Virus record (IMG/VR): IMGVR_UViG_3300038701_000415
Coordinates: 1-44,194 of that record
DNA: 44,194 nucleotides
From: a virus
Strand: one strand, 5' to 3'
Shown here: in pieces, positions 2 to 42,200 of the stretch
Numbering within the stretch: the stretch's first letter is position 1
How the letters are laid out: each line of letters starts with the position of its first letter
Translations under genes and position numbers: made by a program
The notes under the pieces: generated by a model
What the model saw: only the letters and a program-made list of their open reading frames with translations
The model's database searches: none
Told to the model about the DNA's origin: nothing

Positions 2-2482
2 ACGCTGGAGACGGTCGAGCCCGCGCTCTACGCCGACATCATCAAGCAGATCGGCTCCGCTGGCGTGGCCGCACAGGCCGCGGCGCAGGTCGACCCCAAG
101 CAGCCGCACCGCGCCCTGACGGTCGGGCGGCTGACCGAGATCTTCGAGCTGGCCGACCAGATGCTGGCGAACGCCCGCAACAGCCACGGCCTGCTGGTCG
201 AGGGCCGCCGGGTCTCGTTCGACAAGATCGCCAGCGAGGTCGCGAGCTACGTCGACGACCGGGCCAGCAGCCGCAAGCAGGCGAACCGGCCCGCCGAGCG
301 CCCGAGCCGGGTGCGCGAGATGTACGCCGACATGTTCGCTGGCTTCGGCGCTGTCCTGCGCCGGGTCGAGATCTGGGCGCGCGACATGGACAACGGCGAC
401 GCCCGCGGGCCGATGACGCGCTACCTTGTGCGCCCGGTCATGGCCGCGCTCGACGTCTACTACGAGGCCCGCCTCGATCCGCTCAAGCAGCTCGGCCAGC
501 TGCTGAAGGATCAGAAGGATCTGCTGAAGCACCGTCCGATCAAGGCCGATGAGCTCGCGCCGGGATGGAGCTTCCGCAACAAGGGCGAGCTTCTGATGGC
601 CATCGCCAACACCGGCAACGAGAGCAACTTCCGCAAGCTCCTGATGGGCGGCGGCAAGGTCGGCAACGAGTGGTCGTCGTGGACTTCGACCACATCCTTC
701 GCCGACGAGCTCGATACGTCGCGGTGGGACGCCTTCATCGCCCGCGCCATCGCTGATGGCACGATCACGAAGGCCGACATGGACGCGGTGCAGGGGATCT
801 GGGACATCTTCGAGGGCACCAAGAGCGGCGCGCAGGCGGCGCACCAGAAGATGTTCGGCTACCGCTTCGTCGAGATCGAGAACCGGGAGGTCGTGACGCC
901 CTTCGGCACCTACCGCGGCGGCTACGTCCCCGCGGTTATGGACCGCCTGATGAACCCCGGCGCTGACAAGTTCGAGGCGCAGGAGGTCATGTCGCAGCAG
1001 GACAACGCTTCGATGTTCCCCGGCGCGGAGCGCGGCTTCACGCAGAACCGGACGAGCGCGACCTACATCATCGACCTCGACATCACCCGGCTGCCTATGC
1101 ATTTCGACCGCGTGATGCAGTTCACGCACCTCGGGCCGGTGGTGCAGCAGGCCGCGCGCCTGATCAACCACCCCGAGTTCGCCGCTCAGGTCGCGCGGGT
1201 GAACCCCGCCATGACCTCGGCCGGGCTCATCCCGTGGCTTCAGCGCACCGCCCGCCAGCGGACGGCAGCGCCCGCCACCAACGTGCGCGGCCTGCGCCTG
1301 CTGGAGCGCGGGGCCAGCGTCATCGACCGGCGCGTCGGCATGCACATCATGGCCGCCAACATCAAGAACGCGGTCGAGCAGCTGACCGGCATCTTCCCGG
1401 TTCTGGCCCGCGTCCCGGCCAAGCATGTGATCGCTGCAGGCACGACGTGGAAGCTCGACGGCGAGGGCGCGCGGCGGCACGTCATGGCCTCCTCGCCCTT
1501 CATGCGCGAGCGCCTGCAGGTCGGGGCCAACGAGACCCTGAACCTGATCGACAACATCATGCGCGAGCCGGGGCTGCTGAACCGGGTGCAGGACGCCGCG
1601 GTCAAGTATTCGTACTTCGCCCAGCAGATCATGGCCAACGCGATGGAGCCGACCGTCTGGCTGGCGGCCGAGCGCGACGCGATGGAGAAGATCTACCCGA
1701 AGGCCTACGCCGAGTACCTCGCCCAGTCTGGCGACACGACGCAGGCCGACGCCAAGGCCAAGGCCGAGGTCTACGCCTACGCCGACGAGGTCGTGCGCTC
1801 GACGCAGGGCTCGACCCGCCCCAGCGACGTGTCTGGCATTGAGGGCACCTCGGCGCTGATGCGGATCTTCCTGCGCTTCTACTCGTTCTTCAACACGCAG
1901 GGGAACGCCTTCGTCGCCGAGTACAACATCTCGCGCAACCGTGACATCGGGTGGCGCGGGCACAGCGGTCGGGCCCTGTTCGCCTACGCCATGATCCTTG
2001 CGATCCCCGGCATCCTGTCCGGGCTGCTGGGCGCAACCCTGCGCGGCGACCTTGACGAGCTGGAGGACGACGAGGTCACCGACATCCTGATCAACCAGAT
2101 CCTGACGCCGCAGGTCGAGATGGTCGCGGGCACGGTGCCCTTCCTCGGGCAGACGGCCTCGATTGCCTACGGCAGGCTGGCGACCGACAACCCGTTCGAC
2201 GACCGCATCCGCGGCTCCGCGGGCCTCAGCGTCGCGTCGCAGGCTGGCATCGACGTCATCGACCTGATCGGGGACATCGCCGACCCGGAGACGGACGTCG
2301 AGACCTTCGAGGGCGTCAGCACGGTGCTGAACGCGACCGGCCTCCTGATCGGCCTGCCGACCAACTGGCTGGCCAAGCCGCTCGACTACGCAGGCCGGGT
2401 GCAGCAGGGAGAGGCCGACCCCGAGGGGATGGTCGACATCATGCAGGGCATCCTGACAGGCAGAGATGGAACCGAAGAGTGA
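2..2482 (+). CDS. C-terminal part of giant polyvalent internal virion protein (partial)
   Basis: The frame is open from the left edge, so this is the end of the gene that starts at 36226. Joined through the terminal repeat, the protein is about 3440 aa and this piece holds roughly its last 800. The part seen here is mostly alpha-helical. It has a run resembling the large polyvalent-protein-associated domains of phages (around 1340-1960, NIKNAVEQ, YSYFAQQ, RFYSFFNTQGN) and a strongly hydrophobic segment near 1975-2035 (FAYAMILAIPGILSGLLG) that could insert into a membrane. Such domains occur in large proteins thought to be ejected with phage DNA. An ATG at 65 would give 805 aa on its own, but the upstream frame is continuous and that ATG-like start (GTG) has no good ribosome site. 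Function of this part is inferred. Confidence 0.85.
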   Translation, partial: TLETVEPALYADIIKQIGSAGVAAQAAAQVDPKQPHRALTVGRLTEIFELADQMLANARNSHGLLVEGRRVSFDKIASEVASYVDDRASSRKQANRPAERPSRVREMYADMFAGFGAVLRRVEIWARDMDNGDARGPMTRYLVRPVMAALDVYYEARLDPLKQLGQLLKDQKDLLKHRPIKADELAPGWSFRNKGELLMAIANTGNESNFRKLLMGGGKVGNEWSSWTSTTSFADELDTSRWDAFIARAIADGTITKADMDAVQGIWDIFEGTKSGAQAAHQKMFGYRFVEIENREVVTPFGTYRGGYVPAVMDRLMNPGADKFEAQEVMSQQDNASMFPGAERGFTQNRTSATYIIDLDITRLPMHFDRVMQFTHLGPVVQQAARLINHPEFAAQVARVNPAMTSAGLIPWLQRTARQRTAAPATNVRGLRLLERGASVIDRRVGMHIMAANIKNAVEQLTGIFPVLARVPAKHVIAAGTTWKLDGEGARRHVMASSPFMRERLQVGANETLNLIDNIMREPGLLNRVQDAAVKYSYFAQQIMANAMEPTVWLAAERDAMEKIYPKAYAEYLAQSGDTTQADAKAKAEVYAYADEVVRSTQGSTRPSDVSGIEGTSALMRIFLRFYSFFNTQGNAFVAEYNISRNRDIGWRGHSGRALFAYAMILAIPGILSGLLGATLRGDLDELEDDEVTDILINQILTPQVEMVAGTVPFLGQTASIAYGRLATDNPFDDRIRGSAGLSVASQAGIDVIDLIGDIADPETDVETFEGVSTVLNATGLLIGLPTNWLAKPLDYAGRVQQGEADPEGMVDIMQGILTGRDGTEE
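3..128. repeat. Left copy of 126-bp terminal redundancy
   Basis: This stretch matches 44069-44194 base for base. The two bases before it (GA) differ from those before the right copy (CG). Both copies lie in the same reading frame of the giant virion protein gene. The simplest reading is the overlap left when a circular or circularly permuted genome is assembled with a k-mer of 127, not a packaging repeat, because it sits inside a coding sequence. Confidence 0.95.
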
Positions 2483-2486
2483 TTGC

Positions 2487-2496
2487 TGATATAAGG
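2487..2496 (+). promoter_or_regulatory. Possible extended -10 promoter before tail spike
   Basis: TGATATAAGG contains TG-A-TATAAG, which fits an extended -10 element. It is 21 bases before the tail spike start, with the AAGGAG ribosome site between. The hexamer 17 bases upstream (TGGAAC) is a poor -35. The same ten bases also precede the capsid gene at 28148. Weak evidence. Confidence 0.3.
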
Positions 2497-2516
2497 CGGC
2501 GCAAGGAGATCACGCG

Positions 2517-4814
2517 ATGACCACAGAGGCGACAGGCCCATACAACGGAAACGGCACCACGGTCGTGTTCTCGTACACGTTCTTGGTGCAAGACCCCGCC
2601 GATCTGACAGTGACCGTCACCTCGCCCTCGGGCGTGTCGGTGATCCAGACGCTGAACATCGACTACACCGTCAGCGGCGTCTCGAACCCCACCGGCGGGC
2701 AGATCACGATGGTGGTTCCGCCGCCCGTTGGATCGCTCCTGCTGATCACGAACGAGCCGACGCCGAACACCGGGTCGGACACCTCGCCCTACATCACGAC
2801 CGGCGCGGCCTATGGCTTCGACCGGCCCGGCGACGCCAGCGAGCTGTTCGACTTTGGCGACGCGACGGTCGCGCAGAACATCTACGGCAGCGTCATCCGC
2901 TTCACCAAGGCGGGCAAGCTGACCACGCGCGGCCTCGTCGCTATTGAGGTCGACGACGTCTACACCTACCGCGTCCGCTACAGCCGCTCGCTCGACAGCG
3001 GCGACCCCGCCAACGACGGCCTCCAGTTCGGCATCGACCTGCTGAACGGCTTTGGCAACCTGCTGGGCGAGCGTACGCTGGCCTCGGACAACACCCTGCT
3101 GGTGCAGTCGCAGGAGCGCAGCGTCGAGGTCAAGCTCGCCACCTCGACCCTACCAAGCGCCGAGGTGATCCTGCCAAGCAGCGTGAAATATGTGCGGCCG
3201 TGGGTGAAGGTCTACGGCATCGGCCACCAGACCGACATCGAGGTCTGCGGCGTCGCGGTCGACCCGCCTCCGGGCGCACAGGGCGTCCCCGGCCCGAACG
3301 CCGAGATCACGGTCTCCGGGGCCCCGGCGGTGGCGCGCACCTTCTACGTCACCATGTCGGGCAACGACAACAACGACGGCTCGACGCTCTATGCGCCGCT
3401 TGCGACGATTGGCGCTGGCCTCGCCAAGGCCGCGGCGCTCGAGGAGCCAGCGGTGGTGATCGTCCATCCGGGCGAGTACATCGTCCAGCCTGACACCGAG
3501 ATCCCGCGCAACTGCGCCCTCTACGGATACGACCTCCGCACGACCAAGCTCTCCTTGCCCTTCGGGTTCGAGGAGAACAACATGTTCCTGATGACCAGCG
3601 GCATCAAGGTCCGGGGCTTCACCTTCTCCGGCCTGCGCCACGAGGAGGGCTGGGATCTCGAGACCCCGCCGCAGAAGGGCTTCGCCTTCGCGTTCAAGCC
3701 GGGCGAGATCATCACCCGGTCGCCCTACATCGCCGACTGCTCTCAGCTCCACAGCTTCACGCAGGACGAGATGACCCTGCCCATCGACAAGGCAGCGGGC
3801 AACCCGCTGATGCCGCGCGGCGGGGGCAACATCATCGCCGACGGCTCGGTCCTCGGCCCGTCGTCGCCCCTGCGGTCGGTGGTGGTCGACAGCTTCACCG
3901 CCATCAACCCGAACGGCGTCGGCTACCTGATGATCCGCGACGCCTTCGTGCAGCTGGTGTCGGTCTTCACGAACTGGTCGCGCGTGGGCCTCTGGGCGCA
4001 TCAGGGCGGGCAGGTCACGGTCGCCAACTCCAACAACACCTTCGGCGACTACGCGCTGGCTTCGACCGGCTTCCGCAACATCCTGCAGCTGCCCGACTTC
4101 GACCCCCTCGCCCCGCTAGGTGTCTACGAGCCCGCGGCTGACCAGATCGCTCTCGACGCCGACACGATCATCAACAACATGTACGCGCAGCTCGCCAGCG
4201 AGTTCGTCGAGGTGCAGAACTTCACGGTCGAGCAGGAGGCGCTCACGCGGCGCGATGCGGCGACCCTGCTGAAGAACCTCGTCGATGACCTACGCAGCGG
4301 TCAGGAGCGCGGCATCCGCTACTTCATCCGCGGCCTGTTCGACTGGAACGCCGAGTACCATTTCGACCCGGCGCTCCTGCCGATCTTCCTGCGGTCGTAC
4401 GAGATCCTCCTCGCCGAGATCAAGCTGCGCCCGCCGCAGGTGATCCTGCCCGCAGAGGACATGCTGGACTACCTCTTCGCCTTCTTGGCTGCCCAGCTCT
4501 CCGACCCCCAGACCACCGGCTTTCCGTCGGTGATCGAGGCCACCGGCCAGCAGTTCAGCTACGCCGGGACCGGCGTGAACTACAACTCGCTGCCGATCTC
4601 GCAGCGCGGCACGGGCCGGGCGAGCGACCCGACGCTGGCGATCTACAAGGACGGCGGGGGCCGGGTCTACGCCACGTTCTCGACCGAGACTGGCGACACC
4701 TATCTCGGGGAAGACCTGCGGGTCGACTTCGAGCGCAACACCATCGAGGGGCAGGCATTCAGCCGTGGTGTGCAGAACATCGCTCTCCCCCTCATCATCG
4801 GAGTAGGAGGCTGA
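2517..4814 (+). CDS. Tail spike or tail fibre protein
   Basis: 765-aa protein. Residues 1-90 look like the N-terminal attachment domain of podovirus tail spikes (FSYTFLVQDPADLTVTV, then DYTVSGVSNPTGGQITM). After a short glycine/proline stretch (GAQGVPGPN, about 260) residues 275-480 carry a DUF1565/pectate-lyase-like right-handed beta-helix signature (FYVTMSGNDNNDGSTLYAP, PGEYIVQP, MTSGIKVRGFTF). The C-terminal part is not recognised. By family it should sit on the tail and bind or degrade surface polysaccharide, but I see no catalytic residues I can name. The start at 2517 has AAGGAG 10 bases upstream. It follows the giant virion gene by 34 bases and is followed within 2 bases by the next gene, so it belongs to a late tail operon. 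Confidence 0.8.
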   Translation: MTTEATGPYNGNGTTVVFSYTFLVQDPADLTVTVTSPSGVSVIQTLNIDYTVSGVSNPTGGQITMVVPPPVGSLLLITNEPTPNTGSDTSPYITTGAAYGFDRPGDASELFDFGDATVAQNIYGSVIRFTKAGKLTTRGLVAIEVDDVYTYRVRYSRSLDSGDPANDGLQFGIDLLNGFGNLLGERTLASDNTLLVQSQERSVEVKLATSTLPSAEVILPSSVKYVRPWVKVYGIGHQTDIEVCGVAVDPPPGAQGVPGPNAEITVSGAPAVARTFYVTMSGNDNNDGSTLYAPLATIGAGLAKAAALEEPAVVIVHPGEYIVQPDTEIPRNCALYGYDLRTTKLSLPFGFEENNMFLMTSGIKVRGFTFSGLRHEEGWDLETPPQKGFAFAFKPGEIITRSPYIADCSQLHSFTQDEMTLPIDKAAGNPLMPRGGGNIIADGSVLGPSSPLRSVVVDSFTAINPNGVGYLMIRDAFVQLVSVFTNWSRVGLWAHQGGQVTVANSNNTFGDYALASTGFRNILQLPDFDPLAPLGVYEPAADQIALDADTIINNMYAQLASEFVEVQNFTVEQEALTRRDAATLLKNLVDDLRSGQERGIRYFIRGLFDWNAEYHFDPALLPIFLRSYEILLAEIKLRPPQVILPAEDMLDYLFAFLAAQLSDPQTTGFPSVIEATGQQFSYAGTGVNYNSLPISQRGTGRASDPTLAIYKDGGGRVYATFSTETGDTYLGEDLRVDFERNTIEGQAFSRGVQNIALPLIIGVGG

Positions 4815-4815
4815 C

Positions 4816-5229
4816 ATGCCGATCATCGTAACGCCACGCCCGCCTCTGAACCTGTTCGAGGTCGTTCGCACCACCATCACCGACGAGTGGACGCAGGTCT
4901 ACCAGACGCCGCTCTACCGCATCCCTGCGAGCGGGCCTGACCCGCAGACAGACGTCGGGGCTGCGGCCATCATGACGGGCCTCATCGTGGCCAACACGTC
5001 GCCGCTGGCGACGACGGTGTCAGCGCGCATCCTCGACACCGAGAGCAACCCCTTCGCCCTGCTGACCGACATCCAAATCCCGGTCGGGGATTACATCCTG
5101 CTCGACATGGACCGGCAGGTGCTCAAGTCGGATGAGATCCTGCAGCTGCAGTGCGCGACCGCGACGACCGCGACGGTCCACTTCTCGTTCATCCTCAACC
5201 AGCGTGAACAGTTCGAGGTCATCACATGA
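4816..5229 (+). CDS. Small tail-associated protein
   Basis: 137 aa, beta-rich by appearance, with no signal peptide or membrane segment. It starts one base after the tail spike stop, with GTAGGAG as ribosome site, and overlaps the next gene by ATGA. The order spike, small beta protein, second fibre suggests a structural or connector role in the tail, similar to small fibre-associated proteins of marine podoviruses. I cannot assign a family. Confidence 0.55.
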   Translation: MPIIVTPRPPLNLFEVVRTTITDEWTQVYQTPLYRIPASGPDPQTDVGAAAIMTGLIVANTSPLATTVSARILDTESNPFALLTDIQIPVGDYILLDMDRQVLKSDEILQLQCATATTATVHFSFILNQREQFEVIT

Positions 5230-8000
5230 GCAACCCACGCTACGGCTCTGGCCGCAACCAGTTCATCGGGCAGGGCGTCGACGTCGACCTGACGAAGCTC
5301 GACGCCGCAGCCTACGAAGGCGCGGTGGTCTACTCCGAAAACCAGATTTACTTCTCGGACGGCTCCGGCTGGACGATCCCGCAGGATACGGTCGACATCG
5401 CCCGCCCCCGCGGCGTGCCGCCGCTGACCATCGAGCAGCAGGCGCAGCTGACGCTGTCGCCCTTCGCCAGCCCGACCGGGGAGACCCAGATCGGGATCAT
5501 CTACGAGTGGAACGCCGACGGCATCGCCGACTTCTCGGTCGGCGCGAACGTCGAGACGCGCACGGTCACGAGCACCACAACCAACATCTACGACATCCTC
5601 TACCCGGAGGACGGGTTCGAGCCCGGCGACGTGATCTGGTGGCGCGCGAAATACCTCGGCACCAACGGCACGCAGTCGCAGTACTCGACCCCCATCGCCC
5701 AGTTTTACCCGCCGCTCCTGAGCGACCCGGAGCCGGTGACGCGCGTCGGCGCGATCACGGGCGAGGTCGAGATCACGCCGTTTTTCAGCCTGTTCGGCCT
5801 GCAGTACGTCCAGACCGAGTTCCAGTTCTGGAACGAGGGGGATGACCCCGAGGTCGACCCGCCTTTGCTGGAGGTTACCTCGCAGCTGGGCGCAGCCCTC
5901 ACGCTGCCGGAGGAGCTGGCCGAGGGCGGTAACTACCTGTGGCGGGCGCGCTACGGCGCGAACCTGACCGGCGTGGGCTCGCCCACAGCCTTCACCAACT
6001 ACACGGTCGCCCGCGTCGTGAACAAGGGCGCAGGCTCGATGGTGCTGGTCTACGACCCGGCGCTGGCGAACAGCCGCACGATCACCCTGCCGCTTGGCAT
6101 CTACGGCGGGGTGGTCAACGTCACGGTCGACTGGGGCGACGGCAACGAGGAAACCTTCACCACCTCGGGCTACAAGAACCACACCTACGCCGCAGGCGTG
6201 ACGGGTCTGGTGACGGTCGTCATCAGCGGTCAGCTGGAGCAGTACGGCGGCAACACCAACATCCAAGGGCTGGTCCGGGTCGACAACATCGGCTTCAACC
6301 TCGGCCTCACCTCGCTGCGCGAGATGTTCCGCAACTGCACGCAGAACACGACCGTTGTCACGCCGAACCTGCCGCCGCAGGTGACGGACGCGCAGGGCAT
6401 GTTCTACAATGCCGACCCCGGTTTTGACCCTGCGTCTTTGGATACATCCAACATCCAAGACATGAGTGAGATGTTTTACCTTAGTCCTCAAACACAGAGT
6501 AACTTGGCTGGTTTGGACACATCTAGCGCAACAAATATGTATCGCATGTTCCGGCAATACGCTGGAACCAATCCCGATATGACGGGTTATGTCACGGCGA
6601 ATGTCACTAGCATAAAGGAGATGTTTTATGTCTCAAGTGTTGTGACTGGTATTGGGATCGAGACTTGGGACACGTCAGGCGTTACTGATATGTCTTTCTC
6701 GTTTCGCAGCATGTTTGGGTTCAGCAACGCATCAGGTTTTGCAAACTGGGATGTCTCTAACGTCGTCACGTTCAGGGAAATGTTTCTTTCGACGCCGGGA
6801 AACTACGACGTAGCAAACTGGGATGTCTCAAACTGTGTTGATTTTCATAGAATGTTTCAGTCGGCATCCCAGTTTAACCGGGACATTTCTGGATGGAACG
6901 TATCTAATGGGCAAGATTTCTCGTTTATGTTTGTCAATGCGGTTAGTTTTAACTCCCCTATTACCGGCTGGGATTTGTCGAGCGCCACCAGCGTAAATGC
7001 GATGTTTTCTGGTACTGCAATGAACAGCGACGTAACTGGCGTACAGCTTCCGCCTAATATCTCAAGTATGTTTCAACAAGCGTATGCTTTTAACCACCCG
7101 TCTATCAACTCTTGGGACGTATCTGGCGTCACCAACATGTCTGCGCTATTCAGGTCTGCTCGGGAGTTCAACCAGCCTCTGAATAACTGGGACGTATCGG
7201 GTGTCACGGATATGTCGGATATGTTCCATGCTGATAGCATCGGCAACAAGTTCAACCAAAATATAAACAACTGGGATGTGTCAAACGTAACAAATATGGC
7301 GCGCATGTTCGCACAAGACAGCAGGGCTTCGTTCGGTCAGCCTAATGCGTTTAATCAGCCTTTGGACAACTGGGATGTATCCAGCGTTCAGGATATGTCG
7401 CAGATGTTTGCGGTCATCGGGTCGACGACTACGGGGCTATTGAACATCCAGTTCGACCAAGACATTTCGTCTTGGAACCTGCGCGCAGCTGGCGTGTCTT
7501 TGCAGGACTTCATGACAGGTGGTGCAGGGCAGACATCATTCTCGACAGAGAACTATTCCAAGCTGCTCGCCGGGTGGGCCAACAACACCACCGGGAACAA
7601 CGGTCCGTTCAACGTGTCCGCAGGGTTCGGGGACCGCACCTACAACGACACCGACTACTTCGTCGGGGAGCTGTACGAGGACGCGGTCGAGGGTCGGGCC
7701 TACCTGACCAACTCGAACCGCCTCACGGTGTCGAGCGCGGGCGATCCGCTGGCCGATGGCGACTACCTCTACAGCGCGGTGACCCAGCTCTACGAGAACA
7801 CGAACGACTGGTACTTCATCAAGACCGGCGGCGTGTGGGAGCTGCGCGACAACCTCGACGTGGTGCAGGCAACGCAGCAAGATGTGGGCGATCTGGACGC
7901 GCCCCAGCTCGTCACGACGTGGGACGGCGATCTGGCCTCGGCTACCGTCCTGCGCACCGGGGCGGCATGGACCATCGTTGACGGAGGGCAGGTGGTATGA
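5226..8000 (+). CDS. Tail adhesin with PKD-like domain and BspA/DUF285 repeats
   Basis: 924 aa. The N-terminal part (about 1-270) has fibronectin-like spacing and probably anchors to the tail. Residues about 275-345 form a PKD-like unit (VTVDWGDGN then HTYAAG). From about residue 360 to 760 there are a dozen or more repeats of the BspA-like leucine-rich/DUF285 type, with cores such as NWDVSNVTNMARMF, FNQPLNNWDVSG and WDVSSVQDMSQMF. The C-terminal part holds LLAGWANN, also typical of the end of DUF285 proteins. BspA-type repeats are known from bacterial and protozoan surface adhesins. Here they most likely form the receptor-binding part of a tail fibre. The repeats coincide with a clear drop in GC and a change of codon use at about 6430-7480. 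The start overlaps the previous stop (ATGA). Confidence 0.8.
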   Translation: MSNPRYGSGRNQFIGQGVDVDLTKLDAAAYEGAVVYSENQIYFSDGSGWTIPQDTVDIARPRGVPPLTIEQQAQLTLSPFASPTGETQIGIIYEWNADGIADFSVGANVETRTVTSTTTNIYDILYPEDGFEPGDVIWWRAKYLGTNGTQSQYSTPIAQFYPPLLSDPEPVTRVGAITGEVEITPFFSLFGLQYVQTEFQFWNEGDDPEVDPPLLEVTSQLGAALTLPEELAEGGNYLWRARYGANLTGVGSPTAFTNYTVARVVNKGAGSMVLVYDPALANSRTITLPLGIYGGVVNVTVDWGDGNEETFTTSGYKNHTYAAGVTGLVTVVISGQLEQYGGNTNIQGLVRVDNIGFNLGLTSLREMFRNCTQNTTVVTPNLPPQVTDAQGMFYNADPGFDPASLDTSNIQDMSEMFYLSPQTQSNLAGLDTSSATNMYRMFRQYAGTNPDMTGYVTANVTSIKEMFYVSSVVTGIGIETWDTSGVTDMSFSFRSMFGFSNASGFANWDVSNVVTFREMFLSTPGNYDVANWDVSNCVDFHRMFQSASQFNRDISGWNVSNGQDFSFMFVNAVSFNSPITGWDLSSATSVNAMFSGTAMNSDVTGVQLPPNISSMFQQAYAFNHPSINSWDVSGVTNMSALFRSAREFNQPLNNWDVSGVTDMSDMFHADSIGNKFNQNINNWDVSNVTNMARMFAQDSRASFGQPNAFNQPLDNWDVSSVQDMSQMFAVIGSTTTGLLNIQFDQDISSWNLRAAGVSLQDFMTGGAGQTSFSTENYSKLLAGWANNTTGNNGPFNVSAGFGDRTYNDTDYFVGELYEDAVEGRAYLTNSNRLTVSSAGDPLADGDYLYSAVTQLYENTNDWYFIKTGGVWELRDNLDVVQATQQDVGDLDAPQLVTTWDGDLASATVLRTGAAWTIVDGGQVV
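6425..7480 (+). other. AT-shifted segment inside the adhesin gene
   Basis: From about 6425 to 7480 the coding sequence uses many A/T-ending codons (gat, ttt, aac, gta, tct), whereas the flanking parts of the same gene are strongly G/C-ending. The segment matches the DUF285 repeat domain almost exactly. This points to recent acquisition of the repeat module from a lower-GC source (inference). Confidence 0.7.
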
Positions 8001-8197
8001 GCGGCGTGAAAGCACTGCACGAACTGGTGAATGACACCGACAAGCCGATCTACTGGATCGCACAGGGGCCGGAGCTTGTCTTCGGCACCCTCCAGCCGGG
8101 CGGCCACCTCGCCACCGGGCAGGCCGATCTGGAGCAGTTCACCAGCCTCCGCCAATGGCGGGCGCGGGTGATCGAGCTGGGCGGGTCGTTCGACTGA
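7997..8197 (+). CDS. Hypothetical 66-aa protein
   Basis: Small soluble-looking protein that starts inside the adhesin stop (ATGA) and ends sharing TGATG with the next gene. This tight coupling supports it as real. Sequence features: a YWIAQGPE segment, a glycine-rich LQPGGHLATG turn and a C-terminal RARVIELGG. Not recognised. It may be a small chaperone or cap for the adhesin, since fibre-assembly genes often follow fibre genes, but nothing in it proves this. Confidence 0.55.
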   Translation: MSGVKALHELVNDTDKPIYWIAQGPELVFGTLQPGGHLATGQADLEQFTSLRQWRARVIELGGSFD

Positions 8198-8715
8198 TGG
8201 GTCCGCTGTGGGAAGCAACGCGCGATCTGCACCACAAGGCTGAGGGCCACCCCCTCGCCCAGCGGATGGTCGACGGGTCGATCACCGCGCAGGAGTGGTG
8301 CGACTGGTTGCACGCCCACTGGGTCATCCATCAAGCCATCGACCCGCACCTGCCCGCTCACGTCCGTCGCACGGACGCGCTGGCGCTCGACCTGCTGGAG
8401 CTGCTGCCCACGACCCCGTTCCCGTCGCGGGTCGCCGAGGGCTACGCCCGGTCGCTCGTGAGCCCGGCCCTCATCTTCGGCACGGCCTACCTCCTCGTCG
8501 GCGCGCACCGGCGCGGCGGGCAGGTCATCGAGCGCGCCATGCGCGAGAAAGGCGTCGAGCTGCCGTCGAACCACGTCGTGTTCGCCGATCCGCCAGCGGC
8601 GGAGCTGTTCGTGCGCGACCTGCGCAACCGGGTCGAGATCGCCGACGGCGCGCGCCGCGCCTTCGAGGTGCTGTATCTAGTCATGGAAGAGATTGAAGGC
8701 AGAAGGGGCCGCTGA
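8197..8715 (+). CDS. Heme-oxygenase-like protein
   Basis: 172 aa from the ATG at 8197, which overlaps the previous stop (TGATG). An earlier in-frame ATG at 8155 would add 14 residues but lies well inside the upstream gene. The N-terminal helix carries L11-H12-x-x-A15-E16, matching the proximal heme-ligand helix of heme oxygenases (LHxxAE). The helix at 95-112 reads AYLLVGAHRRGGQVIERA, matching the distal glycine-rich helix (G-x-x-x-GGQV) that lies over heme. The length is slightly short of bacterial enzymes (about 180-210 aa). Family members open heme to biliverdin, CO and iron using host electrons. In cyanophages such genes feed bilin synthesis. Here the gene sits between tail and lysis genes, so its role is open: iron or heme use, a bilin for a host phytochrome, or a fold reused for another task. 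The residue before the GGQV motif differs from the canonical acidic or Ser/Thr pattern. Confidence 0.65.
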   Translation: MGPLWEATRDLHHKAEGHPLAQRMVDGSITAQEWCDWLHAHWVIHQAIDPHLPAHVRRTDALALDLLELLPTTPFPSRVAEGYARSLVSPALIFGTAYLLVGAHRRGGQVIERAMREKGVELPSNHVVFADPPAAELFVRDLRNRVEIADGARRAFEVLYLVMEEIEGRRGR

Positions 8716-8717
8716 AT

Positions 8718-8966
8718 ATGGAACTGACATTCGTCTGGAGCGGGGTTCTCACCTTCGTCCTTGGTCTGATCGGGTGGGTGCTACGCAGCTACGTCGAAGA
8801 GGTGAGGCGGCTGAACATCCTGCTGAACCGAACGCGCGAAGAGCTGGCGAAGGAGTACGTCACGAAGGCCGAAGTCCACGCCGACATCAACCGGGTGATC
8901 GCCCGGCTTGAGGCCCTCGACAGCAAGCTCGACCGCATCATCGAGAGCTACAAGAGGAGCCCCTGA
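8718..8966 (+). CDS. Small membrane protein with coiled coil, lysis-associated
   Basis: 82 aa. One hydrophobic segment at residues 5-23 (FVWSGVLTFVLGLIGWVL) is followed by a charged coiled coil rich in E, K and R. Phage genes of this shape often lie directly before the endolysin. It may be a holin accessory or antiholin, but a single segment plus coil does not settle this. The stop overlaps the endolysin start (TGATG), and AGAGGAGC just upstream serves that next gene. Confidence 0.6.
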   Translation: MELTFVWSGVLTFVLGLIGWVLRSYVEEVRRLNILLNRTREELAKEYVTKAEVHADINRVIARLEALDSKLDRIIESYKRSP

Positions 8967-9565
8967 TGTACGTCCCCGCGCACAAGACGAAGATCATGAT
9001 CCACTGCCTCGCCACGCCGCCGAGCTGGGGGCAGGGCAAGACCGCCGAGCAGATGGTCGCTGAGGTCAGGCTGTGGCACACCGACCCCAAGCCGCAGGGT
9101 CGGGGCTGGAGCGACATCGCCTACGCCGAGATCGGGGACTACGAGGGGCGCGGTGCGCCGGGCCGCGACCTGAACAACGACGGCAACACATTCGATGACA
9201 CGGGTGCAGGGGCGTTCGGCCACAACACCGACACGATCCACCTCGCCCTCGCGGGCGGGCGCTGGCCCGACGGGCGCTGGGGCGCTCGCACTGACAAGTT
9301 CTCCGACCACTTCACCCCGGCGCAGGATCGCTGGCTGCGCGAGACCATCGCCAAGATCAACCGCGCCGCGGGCCGCGAGCTGCAGGTTCTGGGCCACAAC
9401 GAGGTCGACCCCAACAAGGGCTGCCCGGCGTTCGACGTGCCGACGTGGCTGAAGGACGCGCCTGCCGCACCAGTCACAAAGCCTGTTGAGACTAGGAACC
9501 CGCTCGCCGCTATCCTCAACGCCATCTTCAAGGCCCTCGGCCTCGGCAAGGGGGGCCCGGCATGA
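8966..9565 (+). CDS. Endolysin, T7-lysozyme-like N-acetylmuramoyl-L-alanine amidase
   Basis: 199 aa, amidase_2 family. The zinc ligands and catalytic residues line up with T7 lysozyme: H13 (IMIHCLAT), Y53, H144, K151 and C153 (GHNEVDPNKGCPAFD). It cuts the amide bond between muramic acid and the stem peptide. T7 lysozyme also inhibits T7 RNA polymerase, but no such polymerase is visible here, so only the cell-wall role is expected. Compared with T7 lysozyme it has an insertion around residues 60-80 and a C-terminal amphipathic tail (176-195, NPLAAILNAIFKALGLG), which may bind membrane. No signal peptide is seen, so it needs a holin for release. Confidence 0.92.
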   Translation: MYVPAHKTKIMIHCLATPPSWGQGKTAEQMVAEVRLWHTDPKPQGRGWSDIAYAEIGDYEGRGAPGRDLNNDGNTFDDTGAGAFGHNTDTIHLALAGGRWPDGRWGARTDKFSDHFTPAQDRWLRETIAKINRAAGRELQVLGHNEVDPNKGCPAFDVPTWLKDAPAAPVTKPVETRNPLAAILNAIFKALGLGKGGPA

Positions 9566-9754: not shown

Positions 9755-9787
9755 ATGTACGGCAAGAAGAAGAAGCCCAAGAAATGA
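9755..9787 (+). CDS. Ten-residue lysine-rich peptide ORF
   Basis: Reads MYGKKKKPKK and stops inside the start of the next gene (ATGA). AGGGGG lies 7-12 bases upstream as a possible ribosome site. Very short basic peptides of this sort appear in some marine phages. It may be a translational coupling device for the spanin gene or a real micropeptide. Evidence is only the start, ribosome site and coupled stop. Confidence 0.35.
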   Translation: MYGKKKKPKK

Positions 9788-10011
9788 TCCTGACCCGCAT
9801 CAAGCTCTGGCTGGCGGCGGCACTGGCGGCCGTCGCGGCCTTTGTGGGGGTCTACCTGCGCGGACGGAAGGATGCCTCCTCACAGGCCCACACAGCGGAT
9901 CTGGAGGCATACCGGAAGACGAGGGAGGACATCGACGATGCGGAGATACATGGCAACGATCCCGCTGCTGCTCGCGACTGGCTGCAGCACTACGCTGACC
10001 GTGAGCACTGA
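9784..10011 (+). CDS. i-spanin-like inner membrane lysis protein (Rz-like)
   Basis: 75 aa with a single N-terminal membrane segment (residues 7-25, LWLAAALAAVAAFVGVYL) followed by a charged helical periplasmic part (about 28-75). The o-spanin-like lipoprotein gene lies inside its 3' half in another frame, the usual Rz/Rz1 arrangement. The pair should fuse inner and outer membranes at the end of infection. Short for an i-spanin (lambda Rz is 153 aa), but similar short forms occur in alphaproteobacterial phages. Confidence 0.65.
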   Translation: MILTRIKLWLAAALAAVAAFVGVYLRGRKDASSQAHTADLEAYRKTREDIDDAEIHGNDPAAARDWLQHYADREH

Positions 10012-34432: not shown

Positions 34433-36223
34433 ATGGCCATCCGAGTTCCCACCCCCGCCATCCAAGGCCCGCAGCAGCTCGGCGTGATCCAAGCGCAGGC
34501 CACGGACACGCCGTTCCAGAACCTGACGCTGCCCGACCTGTCGTTCAACTCGCGCATGCTGGCGCAGGTGGGCGAGGGCGCTGCACGCCTCGGGCAGTAC
34601 CTGCAGGAGCAGGAGGACGAGCGCCTGCTGCTGGAGCTGCAAGCCGGGCTGGGCGCGTGGGAGCGGGAGACCCTCTATGGCGAGCTGCCCGACGGCACGA
34701 GCGACGCCACGGGCGGCATCCTCGGCCTTGAGGGGCCCGACGCCTTTGGCGTCACCGAGCGGGTGGGACAGAGCTTCGACGAGCAGCTCGCCCAGTTCAA
34801 CGAGAGCCTGAGCGGCCTGTCGGCCCGCGGTCGGATGGCGGCGCGGCAGTACGCGCAGAGCCGCCGCGAGAGCATGCTCGACCGGGCGACGCGCTTCGAG
34901 TTCGAGCAGCGCGAGGCCTACAACCGGCAGCTCCGAGCGCAGGCGCTGGCCAGCGCGCAGCGCGCAGCGGCGACGTCGTGGGCGAGCGACGAGGAGCTCG
35001 CAGCCGCAGAGACCCGCATCCGCAGCGCGGCCGAGAGCTATTTCACGCCGGAGGCGGTCGCCGCCGAGGCTGCCCGGTCGGCCGAGAGCGCGGTCGAGGG
35101 CGGCTTCGTCGGGGTCTACGCGCAGGCGGATGCGGCCGAGGCGGCGACCCAGAGCATCACCCAACAGGTCGACGAGATGGTCGCCACCGAGATCGACGGC
35201 TTCTACCGCCAGACGATCCGCACGGCCCTGCTGGAGGGCAGCTCGGCCTCGGTCGCCCGCGCCCGCCAGATCTTCGATCAGGGCGTCGAGCGCGGCGTGA
35301 TCCGCCTGTCCGGTGACGACGACCTGCTGATCCGCGACGTCCGCTTCGGCGAGGAGCGCGACGTCACCATGAGCCTCGCGACCGAGCTGTTCGCGCAGTA
35401 TCCCGACGACGTCGGCAGCGCCATCGAGGCCGTCCGCGCCATGCGCGTGCCGGGCGAGCAGGAGTACTACATCATCGAGGAGCTGCAGCGCCGCTACAGC
35501 CAAGCTGACAGCGTGGCGCAGCAGCAGCGCGAGCAGACCTACGACGAGCTGGTGCAGCAGGCTCGCTCCGGCGCGCTGGTGCCGACCGACCCGAGGCTGG
35601 CCGACCTCACCGACGCCCAGCGCAACGCCCTCGACAACCTCAACCGCGGCATGGCCCTCGTCAACGACCCGGCCACCGTCCGCATGCTGAACGACGCCGC
35701 TCTGCAGGGCGAGACCGCGCTTGCCGACATCGAGCTGTCCGACATCGAGGGCATGCTCGACGCATCGACTTTCGAAACTTGGCGCAGCCGGATCACGGCC
35801 GCGCGCAACGCCGCCGCTGGCGAGCCCGCCTACGAATGGACCGGGGTGCGGACGGAGCTGGCCACGACCAACGCCGCGATCACCGCCCGGCTGGCGGTCG
35901 AGGACGAGGCGGTCCAGTCGGACCTGTTCCTGCTGTTCGAGGACGAGAAGCAGCGCCGCCTCGCCGCAGGCGAGACGTGGGACACGCGCGCCATCAACGA
36001 GTACGCCGATCAGCTGGGCGCGGAGATCCCGATCAGCCGCGGCATTCTCGGTACGACGGAGGCCCCGCTGTATCAGGTGCTGCTCGGCACGGTCGAGTAC
36101 ACCATTCGCGTGCCCGGCGTGCCCGAAGAGGCAGTCGCTCAGATTGCACAGCTCTTGGCGGAGAGCGGCGATCAGGTTACGCCTGAGCGCATCCAAGAAG
36201 TCTATGAAGAGGCGACACGCTAA
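34433..36223 (+). CDS. Internal virion protein (gp15-like)
   Basis: 596 aa, nearly all alpha-helical, with LSFNSRMLAQVGEGAARLGQYLQEQEDER near the start and LSGLSARGRMAARQYAQSRR later. The context (after gp14-like and before the giant protein) and helical make-up fit T7 gp15, which with gp16 forms the periplasmic part of the ejection tube. No enzymatic motif seen. Ends two bases before the giant gene start. Confidence 0.75.
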   Translation: MAIRVPTPAIQGPQQLGVIQAQATDTPFQNLTLPDLSFNSRMLAQVGEGAARLGQYLQEQEDERLLLELQAGLGAWERETLYGELPDGTSDATGGILGLEGPDAFGVTERVGQSFDEQLAQFNESLSGLSARGRMAARQYAQSRRESMLDRATRFEFEQREAYNRQLRAQALASAQRAAATSWASDEELAAAETRIRSAAESYFTPEAVAAEAARSAESAVEGGFVGVYAQADAAEAATQSITQQVDEMVATEIDGFYRQTIRTALLEGSSASVARARQIFDQGVERGVIRLSGDDDLLIRDVRFGEERDVTMSLATELFAQYPDDVGSAIEAVRAMRVPGEQEYYIIEELQRRYSQADSVAQQQREQTYDELVQQARSGALVPTDPRLADLTDAQRNALDNLNRGMALVNDPATVRMLNDAALQGETALADIELSDIEGMLDASTFETWRSRITAARNAAAGEPAYEWTGVRTELATTNAAITARLAVEDEAVQSDLFLLFEDEKQRRLAAGETWDTRAINEYADQLGAEIPISRGILGTTEAPLYQVLLGTVEYTIRVPGVPEEAVAQIAQLLAESGDQVTPERIQEVYEEATR

Positions 36224-36225
36224 CC

Positions 36226-39200
36226 ATGAACCAGCCTCTCGACTTTCGCTCCGCACTTCAGCGCCTGAACGGGCAGGGCCAAGACGCCGAGGCGTCGCCG
36301 CCGATCACCCCGACCGCGCCCGCCGTGCCGCGCGAGGACGCTGCGTCCGGGCTGGATTTCGCGGGCGCGCTGGAGCGGGTGCAGACCGGCACGCGCCGCG
36401 CCTCCACGGTGCAGCAGGCTCTCACCGGCGAGGCCCTAACCGCACGCCCCGGCCCGAGCATGCAGCGCGCCGAGCTGATGGGCACGACGCGCATGGGGCC
36501 GACGCGCGAGAATGCGGACGCCCTGACGATCCTGCGCAGCTCGGAGCGGCTGCTGTCCGAGGGCGCGACGCCCGACGCGGTCGCAGAGGTTCGCCGCATT
36601 GCGCGCGAGCAGCAGACCACCCTGCCGCTGGCGGCGCGCACCTACGTCGAGCAGGCAGAACAGGCGTCCGAACAGCGGCGCGCTGCGCTGCTGCAGGCCA
36701 ACCCGGCCCTGCGCCAGCTCACCGACCGCTTCGGCTACGCCGACCTCGTCACCGACCTTGAGCAGCTCGCCGCGGTCGAGGACGCAGCCAACAGCTTCGC
36801 CGGTCGTCTGATCCTGAGCCCGGCGGGCCGCGAGCGCGCGCTGTCGCTGTCGGAGACGCAGGAGGAGCTGTCGTTCCTTCAGGGCATGAGCGCGGCCGCT
36901 GGCCGCGGCTCGCTCCAGATCGCGGCGAACTTCCCCTACACCGCTGCCGGGCTGGCCATCGCCGACGTTCTCGACATCGGTCGCACGCGCGAGGAGATCT
37001 ACGACCGCCTCGCCGCGCGCTACGAGCGGGAGTACATGACGCCGGTCGAGGATCTGCCGCCGTCGGTGCAGGTCAACCTGCAGCAGGTCGCGAGCTTGCA
37101 GTACGACCGGGTGTCCCAGCTGACACAGGACGACGTGCCGCGCCTGCTGGAGGTCGCCGCCAACAACCTCGCATCGGCATCGTCGCTGATCGAGCTGGGC
37201 GAACGGCTGGGACGCAGCCCGCAGTCGGCCGAGTTCATCGACCACCTCGGCACCAAGGACAACACGGTCGGAGCGACCATCGAGGCCTTCCTTGAGCAGC
37301 CGGTCAACGGGGCTGCGTTCCTCGCCGAGACGCTGGCCGAGAGCGCACCGTCGATCATCGCCGCGGCCACGATTGCGCGCCTGACCGGGTCCACTGCGCT
37401 CGGTGCAGGGGCGTCGGGCTTCGCCTCGTTTAGCCGCGAGAACGTCAACACCGCCATCGGCTACATCAACGAGCAGGGCTACCAGATCAGCACGGTCGAG
37501 GACGCCATCGAGGTGCTCGGCAACGAGGAGCTGATGGCCGAGGCGTCCCGGCGCGGCCTCGCGCGCGGCGTCATCGTCGGCGTGCTGGACGCGCTGGCTG
37601 GCCGCGTCGCTGGCACGCGCCTGAGCCGCAACCCCATCGCCGACGTCGTCCTGCAGTCGCAGGTGCAGGGCGGGCTCGGCGCGGCCGGTGAGGTGCTGGG
37701 CAGCCTCGCCGCGACCGGCGAGATTGACGCGCAGGCTGCCTTCATCGAGTACCTCGCCGAGCTGCCGACTGCGCTGGTCGAGGTGCCCGGCATCGGCCTG
37801 CGCCGGTTCGGTCAGCTGCGGGCCGAGCGGCGGCAGGTGCTGCCGCCCGAGCTGGAGCAGCTGGTCGACGCTAACGCACTGCCCTCGGCGCAGCAGACAG
37901 CCGAGCAGGCGGCCGCCGACCTTGAGACGACGCGCGCCGCCATCGAGGAGACCCAGACCTTCGTCCGCGACCCGGACGCCGTGCGCGAGCTGCTGGAGGC
38001 GGCAGGCGATCAGGAGGTCACGATCCCCGCGGCCGAGGTCGAGCGCCTCTATCAGGAGGGCGCGCTGACCGACGCCGACATCGAGTACCTGCAGGTCGCC
38101 GACGAGGTGACGCAGCAGGGCGAGCTGTCGGGCGACGTGTCTGTCCCTGCCAGCCGCCTGCTGACGCTGCAGGGCGACGGCTTCTCCGCGCTGATCGACA
38201 ACGTGCGGGTGACGCCTGACGCTCTCACGGTCGCCGAGGCGCGCGACGCCATCGCCAATCGCGAGGCCGACATCCAGCGGCTGCAGGGCGTGATCGAGCA
38301 GGCCGAGGCCGCGGTCAGCGAGGTCCAGACGCTGTCGGACCAGATCACCGAGCAGGTGCGCGCCGTCGGCGCGCTGACGCGCGGGCAGGCCCGCGCGGTC
38401 GGCAACCTGATGGCAGAACGCTACGCCGCCCGCGCCGCCCTGTTCGAGCCGGGCACGACGGCGCAGAGCCTGTACGAGGCCGACCGCGTCCAGTTCGAGC
38501 GCGCCGATCAAGCAGGGGCCGGGCTGCAGCAGGGGGCCGAGCCCGCCACCGAGCTCGCCGCGGATCAGGACGTCGTCGGCGCGCAGGGGCTGCGCTTGCT
38601 GCACGGCACGCCGCGGGCAGACCTGACCATCGACGACATCCAGATCGTGCGCGAGGGGGCCAAGCAGAGCAAACGGGGCCGCAGGACCGGCGGCTTCTAC
38701 CTGACAAGTGTCGCGGACGCTGCGCAGGCTGAAGGCTACGCGCAGATGACCGGCGAGACCGGGCAGGTGCTCGACGTCATCATCGCCCCGAACACACGCA
38801 TTCTGCGCTTCGACGGCGACATCACCCGCCTGAGCGAGCGGCAGGTCAACGAGTGGACCGATCAGGGCTACGGGCTGGTGATCGGTCGCGACGTCCGCGG
38901 CCGCACAGAGTACGTCGTGATCGACCGCAACGCCATCCAGCGCATCGGCCCGGCGACGCCGTTCGAGCAGGCGGGGCTCCCGCTCTTCGATAACCCTCTG
39001 CAGATTGAGGGGCGGGTGACTGTCCGCGCGATTGCAGAGGGGATGACCGAGGCGCACATGCAGGCCTACGGTCGGCAGCTCTTTCCCGAGGACAGCCCGG
39101 AGGACTACGCCGAGGTTCTTCGCGTCGCTCGCGAGGAGCTGGCCGCGCAGCTGCAGCAGCCCAACTCTGGGCATGGCTGGTACTCCAAGGACGTCGACCT

Positions 39201-42200
39201 CGCGATCCAGCAGACCGCCCGCATCCTTCCCGGCCTTGATACCAGAGAAGGCCGCGCCGCGTTTCTGACCTTCGCGGGCATCTTCTCCAATGGTCTCGAC
39301 CCGCAGCAGGCGTGGCAGATCTCGATTGAGGCGTACGAGGCGTGGCAGGCCACCGGCGAGATCGTCCTCAACCGCGCCGACGCTGCGCGGGCGGTCGGCC
39401 GCGAGCCGCGCATGACCTCGTTCAAAGACAAGGCTGGGAGCAAGGTCACGCAACCGGCTGGCTGGGGCCCGCGCAATGCCGCCAACGAGCAGCAGCTGCA
39501 GATGTTTAAAACGCTCATCGAGCAGCAGGGGAGCGTCACCGCCGCCCTCGACTGGCTGGTGAGCCCGCAGCCGCGCGCCGACATCAACCAGCTGATGGCA
39601 GACGCTGGGGTGAAGACCCCGCGGTTCAAGACGAAAGCCGAGCGCGAGGGGCCGCCGACGTACGGGGCGCTGATCTTCAGCGAAAAGCTCGGCCGATATA
39701 CGCTCGGCCTTCATGGTGTTCCGGTCGGCAGCGAGGACACCACGGTCGATTTGTGGTACACCCGCACCTACCGCCGCTGGGCCGGGCGGCTGCTGGAGAA
39801 GCCGGTCGGCAAGGAGGGTGTCGCCTCACAGCCAGACCCGGCGCGTGGCGGCATCGAGCGGCAGACCATCTTCTCCCTCACGGGCGACCTGATGGCGGAT
39901 TACCCGGAGCTGTCGGCAGGCGACGTGCAGGCCATGCTCTGGTTTTTTGAAAAGCGCCTCTGGGGCGCACAGGGATTGAGGACCGATGAGGGGACCAACT
40001 CAGCAGGGGCGCGACAGGCGCTCGAAGCCCGAGGCCTTGAGTTCGATGAGCGAGGCGGAAGCCTCGCGCCGGGTGCAGAGGGTGGCGCAGCTGTCACCCT
40101 TGAACAGCCCGCCATCGAGCCCGGAGGAACAGGAAGCTATTCGGGCGGAGGCCTTGCGCCGCTCGAAGGTGCGCCAAATGTCCGCGGGGCAGCTGGCCCC
40201 GACGCCGAGCTCGTCGCCGTCGCCGAACGCTACGCCGCCGAGAACGGAATAGACCTTCGCCGTCAGGCGGAGTTCGTCGAGGTCGACCCCGAAAGGGCGA
40301 CGCGCATCGCGCAGGCCTACGAGGAGATGGAGCACGCGCCGCAAGATCCGGCGGTGCAGGCGGCCTATGCCGACCTGATCGCGCAGACCATCGCGCAGTA
40401 TCAGGCCCTCGTCGACGCGGGCTACAGCTTCACCTTCTTCGACAGCGAGACCGACCCCTACGACGGCAACCCGTGGAACGCGATGCGCGATCTCCGGGCC
40501 AACAAGACGATGGCGGTCTACGGCACCTATGACGGCTACGGCACCGAGGGCCTCACCGAGGAGGCCATCGCCGACAACCCGATGCTGCAGGACACGGGCC
40601 TTGTGTGGCCCGACCAGAACGGTGTAGACCGCCCGGTCACGGCCAACGACCTGTTCCGCGCCGTGCATGACGCCTTCGGCCACGGGATCGAGGGCGCGGG
40701 CTTTCGGGCCCGCGGCGAGGAAAACGCATGGCAGGCGCATGTGCGCCTGTTCACCGGCGACGCCATCGCCGTGCTGACGAGCGAGACGCGCGGCCAGAAC
40801 AGCTGGCTGAACTACGGGCCCTACGGTGAGCAGAACCGGACGGCCGGGGTCGAGGACACGGTCTTCGCCCAGCAGAAGGCGGGCATCATGCCCGAGTGGA
40901 CATGGATGGAGGGGCGCGCAGGCGACGCTCCAACACAGGAGGCGACCGATGCAACAGAAGCCACGCTCCTTGACCGGGGCATCTCTCCAGACCCTGCAGC
41001 AGTTCGCGGCCGAGGCGCAGCAGCGGGGGCCGCAGCCGTCGAAGGCGTCGAACGTGCCGGTGCCGGATTGGCAGACCAACAGGACCGGGATACCCGTGAG
41101 CAACCCGTCACCGCAGACGACCTCGGACGCCTAGACGACCCTGAGTTCCTGCGCGAGTTCCTGACCCGCCCCGGCTGGGGCGCGGTCACCGCCTCGCTCG
41201 CGCTGCCCGACGACGCCTTCTACCAGCGCCAGCGGGAGGAGAACCCCGCCGCCTACGAGCGGTCGCTGCAGCGTCAGGCGGATCGGAACCAGCGGGAGAA
41301 CGAGTACCTGCGCACCCTGCTAGAGCAGGAGGGCATCGCCTACCTGACGGTGCAGGGGATGTACCAAGGCGAGCCCGACGGCACGAGCTACATCATCGCC
41401 GCCGACGAGGCGACGGTCATGCGCTTCGGGCGCAGGTTCGGTCAGGAGAGCGTCCTGACGCGCGACGGCCTGATCTTCACGCAGCGCGCGCAGGCCGACG
41501 TGCAAGCCACCGGCGACGTCATGGTCGGCGAGCAGGCGCTGGCCGAGGACTTCTACTCGGTCACCCCCGGCGGCACGCAGTTCTCGATGGGGCTGGCCTT
41601 CGGCACCAGCGGGCCCGGCGTGCCCGTGATCCCAGAGGGCTACACCCAAAGCGCGGAGCGGCCGCAGCTGCCGGTGCGCCCAGACGGGACGGTCGAGCTC
41701 TTCCACTGGTCGGGCAGCGAGCTCACCACCGTCGATCCCGCCTTCGCCGGGACCGGGCCGCTGCAGGGCGCAGAGCGCCAGCGCGGGGCGCGGGTGTCGT
41801 TCTTCGGCATCAACCCGCGCGAGCGGATGCGGTCGCAGGGCACGGGCTACGTTAAGGAGGCCGGGCTGGGCGCGGTGCGGCACGTCGCCTTCGTCGAGCC
41901 TGACGCGCTGTACCCGCTCTTCGAAGACCCCGACGGCATCGCAGATGGGAAGAACATCAGCGACGCCGAGGCCGCGATCCGCGACGCGGGCTACCTCGGC
42001 TACTACACCACCGACGACGGCTCCGGCCGTGCGCCTCTGGGCAACGTCGCCGTGCTGTTCGAGGCGGTGCCGGTGCAGGTCGTGCCGCCCGAGACCCCGG
42101 CGCTGGAGCAGCCCGCGCAGGGCCCGCAGACGCCCACCCGCGGCGCGGTCGGCGCGCCCCGCGGGTCGTACACCCTGCCGCAGGCAGACGGCGACCCTAA

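Follow-up and report, generated by a model that had tools for sequence, protein, structure and literature searches.

Here, we describe a widespread branch of phage heme oxygenases (HOs) with a rebuilt active site, for which we found no published description; literature searches likewise returned nothing on HO-like genes in phage tail modules. Its representative in the window, positions 1 to 44,194 of IMG/VR virus record IMGVR_UViG_3300038701_000415, is an HO homolog and not a canonical HO, as judged from sequence comparison and a structural model. The explanation that we favor, and to which we would give about even chances, is that the protein is a diverged HO that serves as a phage accessory at the end of the receptor-binding (tail fiber/adhesin) module, where it would bind heme, perform oxidative heme or peroxidase chemistry, and act late.

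Gene order around the HO-like gene

The HO-like gene occupies positions 8197 to 8715 on the plus strand, as the initial annotation had placed it, and encodes 172 amino acids (aa) from an ATG start; a longer listed open reading frame (ORF) from 8155 has its start within the upstream gene. Tail protein genes (65 to 5229) come first in the gene order, before a 924-aa tail adhesin with DUF285/PARCEL repeats (5226 to 8000, plus strand; PF03382, E = 6.7e-85) that forms the module immediately 5'. Between the adhesin and the HO-like gene lies a small gene of 66 aa (7997 to 8197, plus strand), whose stop codon shares one base with the HO-like start (TGATG). On the 3' side, a membrane/coiled-coil protein (8718 to 8966; phrog_462, E = 1.3e-9) opens the lysis region, which also contains an amidase endolysin (8966 to 9565; phrog_822, E = 9.4e-30) and an Rz-like spanin (9784 to 10011; phrog_1026, E = 5.3e-6), all on the plus strand. 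The setting proposed initially, between a tail adhesin and lysis genes, thus holds. No promoter signal and no plus-strand terminator were found around the HO-like gene, and none of the anti-phage defense models matched.

A relative of the 66-aa gene occurs in a second contig (L328, about 2620 to 2790; E = 9e-8), where it is again flanked by a DUF285 adhesin and an HO-like gene, and a third contig (L356, 4714 to 4989) shows a likeness in the same setting, recognized by eye at E = 4.7. The related proteins share the pattern YWIA.GP ... ATGQ. With the L356 match being one made by eye, this sequence evidence suggests that the 66-aa gene, the DUF285 adhesin, and the HO-like gene form a three-gene module.

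Two further observations concern the virion genes of the window. Plus-strand frames of 2662 and 826 aa (36208 to 44193 and 2 to 2479) look like one giant virion gene split by the contig ends. In addition, a 137-aa tail protein (4816 to 5229) reappears in two related phages (L009, 5600 to 5998; L012, 5591 to 5998) as a C-terminal domain of the fiber gene that directly precedes the HO-like gene. For host assignment, the closest amidases are those of Rhodovulum and Microcystis phages (44%), and the portal and capsid-region genes are closest to Limnohabitans and unassigned phages, a mixture that does not settle the host. The nonphotosynthetic host presumed in the initial annotation is not established.

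Homology and predicted fold

The product of the HO-like gene matches the Pfam model PF01126 at 26.6 bits (E = 6e-6; gathering cutoff, 23), with borderline scores for its relatives (21.7, 23.5, and 14.3 bits). Against a hidden Markov model (HMM) of phage HOs it scores 22.3 bits, compared with 5.1 for the best of 2000 shuffles and at most 2.1 for the other frames of the window, and profile-profile comparison with phage HOs gives a probability of 90.5% (E = 1.3e-6). An HO alpha-helical fold is predicted for the protein. AlphaFold2, supplied with an alignment of 40 sequences, other phage HOs among them, returned a model with a pLDDT of 95.2 and a pTM of 0.91, whose best PDB matches in Foldseek are rat HO-1, HmuO, and SynHO1 (TMq about 0.8, mostly 0.77 to 0.83). 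Because canonical HOs were part of the input alignment, this fold is not independent proof, yet it agrees with the Pfam result; a model built from only the four closest relatives was uninformative (pLDDT 46). Both points weigh against the explanation that we favor. In BFVD, Foldseek retrieved two proteins from uncultured phages that carry the name heme oxygenase or heme-oxygenase-like. The HO homology proposed initially is borne out by both the HMM and the structural comparison.

The family profile finds mammalian HO-2/HO-1 first, with plant HO chains absent up to an E value of 10. Across the family, dN/dS values of 0.08 to 0.37 (0.37 and 0.24 for the window protein against two relatives) point to purifying selection.

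Active-site residues

Residues were compared in an alignment of 31 HO-like proteins and 36 canonical phage HOs. The proximal helix reads LHHKAE (residues 11 to 16), as expected from the LHxxAE motif that had been noted, and its His12 and Glu16 (codons at 8230 to 8244, plus strand), equivalent to human His25 and Glu29, are found in 31/31 HO-like and 36/36 canonical proteins. Both groups also retain Thr8, Gly27, Asp65, Tyr98, Gly107, Gly108, and Phe156. All 31 HO-like proteins keep T8, H12, E16, Y98, G107, G108, R143, and F156, which correspond to human T21, H25, E29, Y134, G143, G144, R183, and F207.

The distal helix departs from the canonical form that had been read into it. Its motif is G102-A-H-R-R-G107-G108-Q-V, in which four residues, rather than the three of the G-x-x-x-GGQV given initially, separate G from GG. 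Here Ala103-His104 (8503 to 8508, plus strand) replaces human Gly139-Asp140, with A-H in all 31 HO-like rows and G-D in all 36 canonical rows; Gly107-Gly108 (8515 to 8520, plus strand; human Gly143-Gly144) is invariant in both groups. The canonical GDxxGG is therefore absent and reads A103-H104-x-x-G107-G108, next to a proximal His and Glu that are present. Also on the distal side, Leu100 stands in place of the canonical Arg (human Arg136), and further shifts from the canonical group replace Glu by Asp49, His by Ala or Thr at position 96, and a basic residue by Trp5. The human Tyr58 position is His45 in 29/31 HO-like proteins, and Leu159 takes the human Asn210 position in the window protein, so that the canonical distal network of Tyr58, Arg136, and Asn210 becomes H45, L100, and L159. 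Conservation of His104 is partly made by the search, since 50 of 61 loci were retrieved solely via the peptide HLMGGEIM, which imposes this residue, and this too counts against the favored explanation. Ala103, Leu100, His45, and Asp49 are not imposed by the peptide, and neither the window group nor L281 depended on it for retrieval.

Compared with the PF01126 enzymes HO-1, HmuO, and SynHO1, the phage protein is thus alike in fold, proximal His-Glu, distal GG, and the equivalents of Tyr134, Arg183, and Phe207. It differs by Ala-His for Gly139-Asp140, Leu for Arg136, His for Tyr58, Trp for Lys18, and a shorter middle region. As far as alignment and model go, the protein probably binds heme. Against the favored explanation, Trp5 replaces the propionate contact made by Lys18 of human HO-1 in every HO-like member, and Leu159 replaces Asn210. 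Replacements of Gly139 or Asp140 in human HO-1, Asp140His among them, are reported to lower heme oxygenation, which also speaks against it, and to favor peroxidase chemistry (studies cited in PMC5542595; PMC5623701; PMC7948506).

The plant enzyme GmHO-1, however, naturally carries Ala149-His150 at the distal pair, uses an alternative hydrogen-bond network, and is active (PMC7948506). Inactivity can therefore not be claimed for the phage HO-like protein, and we dropped the reading that Asp140His means inactive; by analogy with the plant enzyme, activity may be kept despite the Ala-His pair. Since Tyr58 of human HO-1 is hydrogen-bonded to Asp140 (PMC5623701), His45 and His104 can be seen as a matched replacement. 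GmHO-1 also resembles the phage protein in the loss of Arg136 (PMC7948506), and it has Arg23 at the Lys18 position. Unlike the phage protein, plant-type HOs contain an irregular insertion and, in place of the His-Glu contact, one between His and Ala26, and they show no close sequence match to the phage family.

The same residues bear on a different chemistry, in which the protein would be a nonheme HO-like dimetal oxidase (HDO) that uses conserved His and acidic residues and modifies the adhesin or a surface molecule. H12, H13, H18, H104, H126, E16, D49, and D65 are invariant in the HO-like set, which is enough in number, geometry aside, for the HDO standard of three-His/three-carboxylate ligands on core helices, and methane monooxygenase and ribonucleotide reductase bind iron through the residue at the Tyr58 position, which is H45 here (PMC5623701). 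We nevertheless consider an HDO distinctly improbable: the HO-specific heme contacts are retained, the nearest fold and sequence matches are heme-type HOs, and the index-328 ligand position (Tyr137) is Thr/Val/Ile in the phage proteins.

Distribution and phylogeny

Relatives of the HO-like gene occur in about 70 IMG/VR contigs (34 clusters) on several phage backbones. Seven close IMG/VR relatives fall into two further lineages (76% and 68% identical), and a scan with the neighboring DNA polymerase gene recovered related podophages, some of which have the HO-like gene in the same place, among them L281, L294, and L295 with a 40% version. In five others (L274, L275, L282, L285, and L287), small or fiber genes are followed directly by lysis genes, without an HO-like gene. 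The HO-like gene is thus accessory, being present at this place in some related podophages and missing in others. A scan with the L281 protein yielded 62 contigs of up to 110 kb (31 clusters at 90% identity). No relatives were found among named phages or plasmids. When bacterial and archaeal genomes were scanned twice with patterns taken from the window group and the canonical phage HOs, no confirmed relative emerged, a negative that does not extend to the larger L298-L359 group.

Among the 31 HO-like and 36 canonical phage proteins, the HO-like proteins form a separate clade (support, 0.97) on a long branch, separate from the HOs of cyanophages, pelagiphages, and T4-like freshwater phages. 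The hemO products of cyanophages, Pelagibacter phage Mosig, and T4-like freshwater phages are likewise phage-encoded members of the HO family, with 15 to 27% identity to the window protein. In contrast to it, they keep GDxxGG and fall outside the HO-like clade, and the freshwater set adjoins a bilin reductase. The initial annotation, which named cyanophages as the phages with established HOs, is outdated on this point: Mosig and a freshwater phage with a proposed alphaproteobacterial host carry hemO, and the freshwater enzyme was shown to be active (PMC11480375).

Homology to these known phage hemO genes, one with a demonstrably active product, would agree with an auxiliary metabolic HO of the ordinary kind, which would provide biliverdin for bilins or phytochrome of the host in the manner of hemO-pcyX cassettes. 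This role is improbable. Neither the window nor the flanks of the related loci contain a bilin reductase (FDBR), compared with 79 canonical freshwater-set loci that have one, and the HO-like loci therefore differ from the hemO-pcyX bilin cassette; the distal motif, moreover, is unlike that of all 36 canonical phage HOs. The suggestion of a bilin made for a host phytochrome accordingly becomes unlikely. As a separate observation, the canonical HO and bilin reductase of one T4-like freshwater contig (L016, 3233 to 8843) adjoin DnaK-like, small heat-shock-like, and ClpS-like genes, as read from translations.

Genomic context of relatives

In four podophage lineages, the HO-like gene lies between fiber genes and endolysins of differing type, namely amidase (window), CHAP-type (L009), M15 (L281), and a 214-aa protein read as CHAP-like (L012). 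In T4-like contigs, it is located between a fiber gene and a fiber-assembly gene (phrog_3304). Genes on the 5' side include those for DUF285, S74-chaperone, Mtd_N, and tail-assembly-chaperone proteins. An adhesin, fiber, or fiber-chaperone gene is found at most two genes upstream in about 20 of the 29 clusters that have an upstream gene (about two thirds), a manual count in which several large unassigned proteins were classed by eye. In 11 of these 29 clusters, the start codon shares 1 or 4 bases with the stop of the preceding gene, and a 1-base overlap is likewise seen in the window, L002, and L005 groups. The coupling toward the small gene and the adhesin that had been noted for the window therefore recurs, as translational coupling, in many unrelated phages. 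The L311 and L355 groups have no adjoining adhesin, which counts against the favored explanation.

Upstream of HO-like genes and near tail fibers, we also observe a galactose-3-O-sulfotransferase-like gene (L332, 4335 to 4976) and a glycosyltransferase-like gene assigned by eye (L306, 3411 to 4475). Iron delivery to HxH iron-binding tail fibers was considered and rejected, since the large upstream fibers lack an HxH motif; the few such motifs found were in two glycosyltransferase-like neighbors and one fiber-assembly protein.

A position directly behind fiber genes is the usual one for fiber chaperones (PMC10579305) and, together with the altered distal network, would suit an HO fold that has lost its catalysis and been taken over as a protein scaffold, for example as an assembly factor or cap for the upstream adhesin. 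PfHO of malaria parasites (Plasmodium) sets a precedent, as a divergent HO with an altered active site in which the fold is kept and heme degradation is lost (PMC11634067). However, the proximal His and GG pair that are missing from PfHO are retained in the phage protein, along with Glu. A separate tail assembly chaperone gene is also present in L298, L307, L339, L009, and L012, HO-like genes adjoin unrelated adhesin types, and the window protein has no PHROG or Pfam chaperone match. We therefore regard a silent scaffold as unlikely.

Proposed role

In the favored explanation, that of a diverged and late-acting heme enzyme, the HO-like protein would bind heme through His12 and would use its Ala-His distal pair as plant-type HOs do. 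It could then oxidize heme, opening the ring and freeing iron and CO, or act as a heme peroxidase. The protein would be made together with the adhesin and act late, in a role tied to it. The different active site, the lack of a bilin partner, and the repeated occurrence directly after adhesin genes in unrelated phages point toward a late function tied to host recognition, and a benefit linked to the adhesin or the targeted cell surface is more likely than bilin supply. More tentatively, and at doubtful odds, several unrelated phage backbones might share a receptor-binding-module heme enzyme with a plant-type Ala-His pocket, which would bind heme and work on or with the tail adhesin as a virion component, maturation enzyme, or heme peroxidase.

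So far, phage HOs have been interpreted as aids to the bilin metabolism of the host, and their existence outside cyanophages is already known (PMC11480375). Simple assays of heme binding, biliverdin formation, and virion association make the role of phage heme enzymes outside cyanophages directly testable. In addition, the HO-like branch represents a natural Gly139Ala/Asp140His-type HO outside plants, which is useful for the debate on plant-type HOs that lack Asp140.
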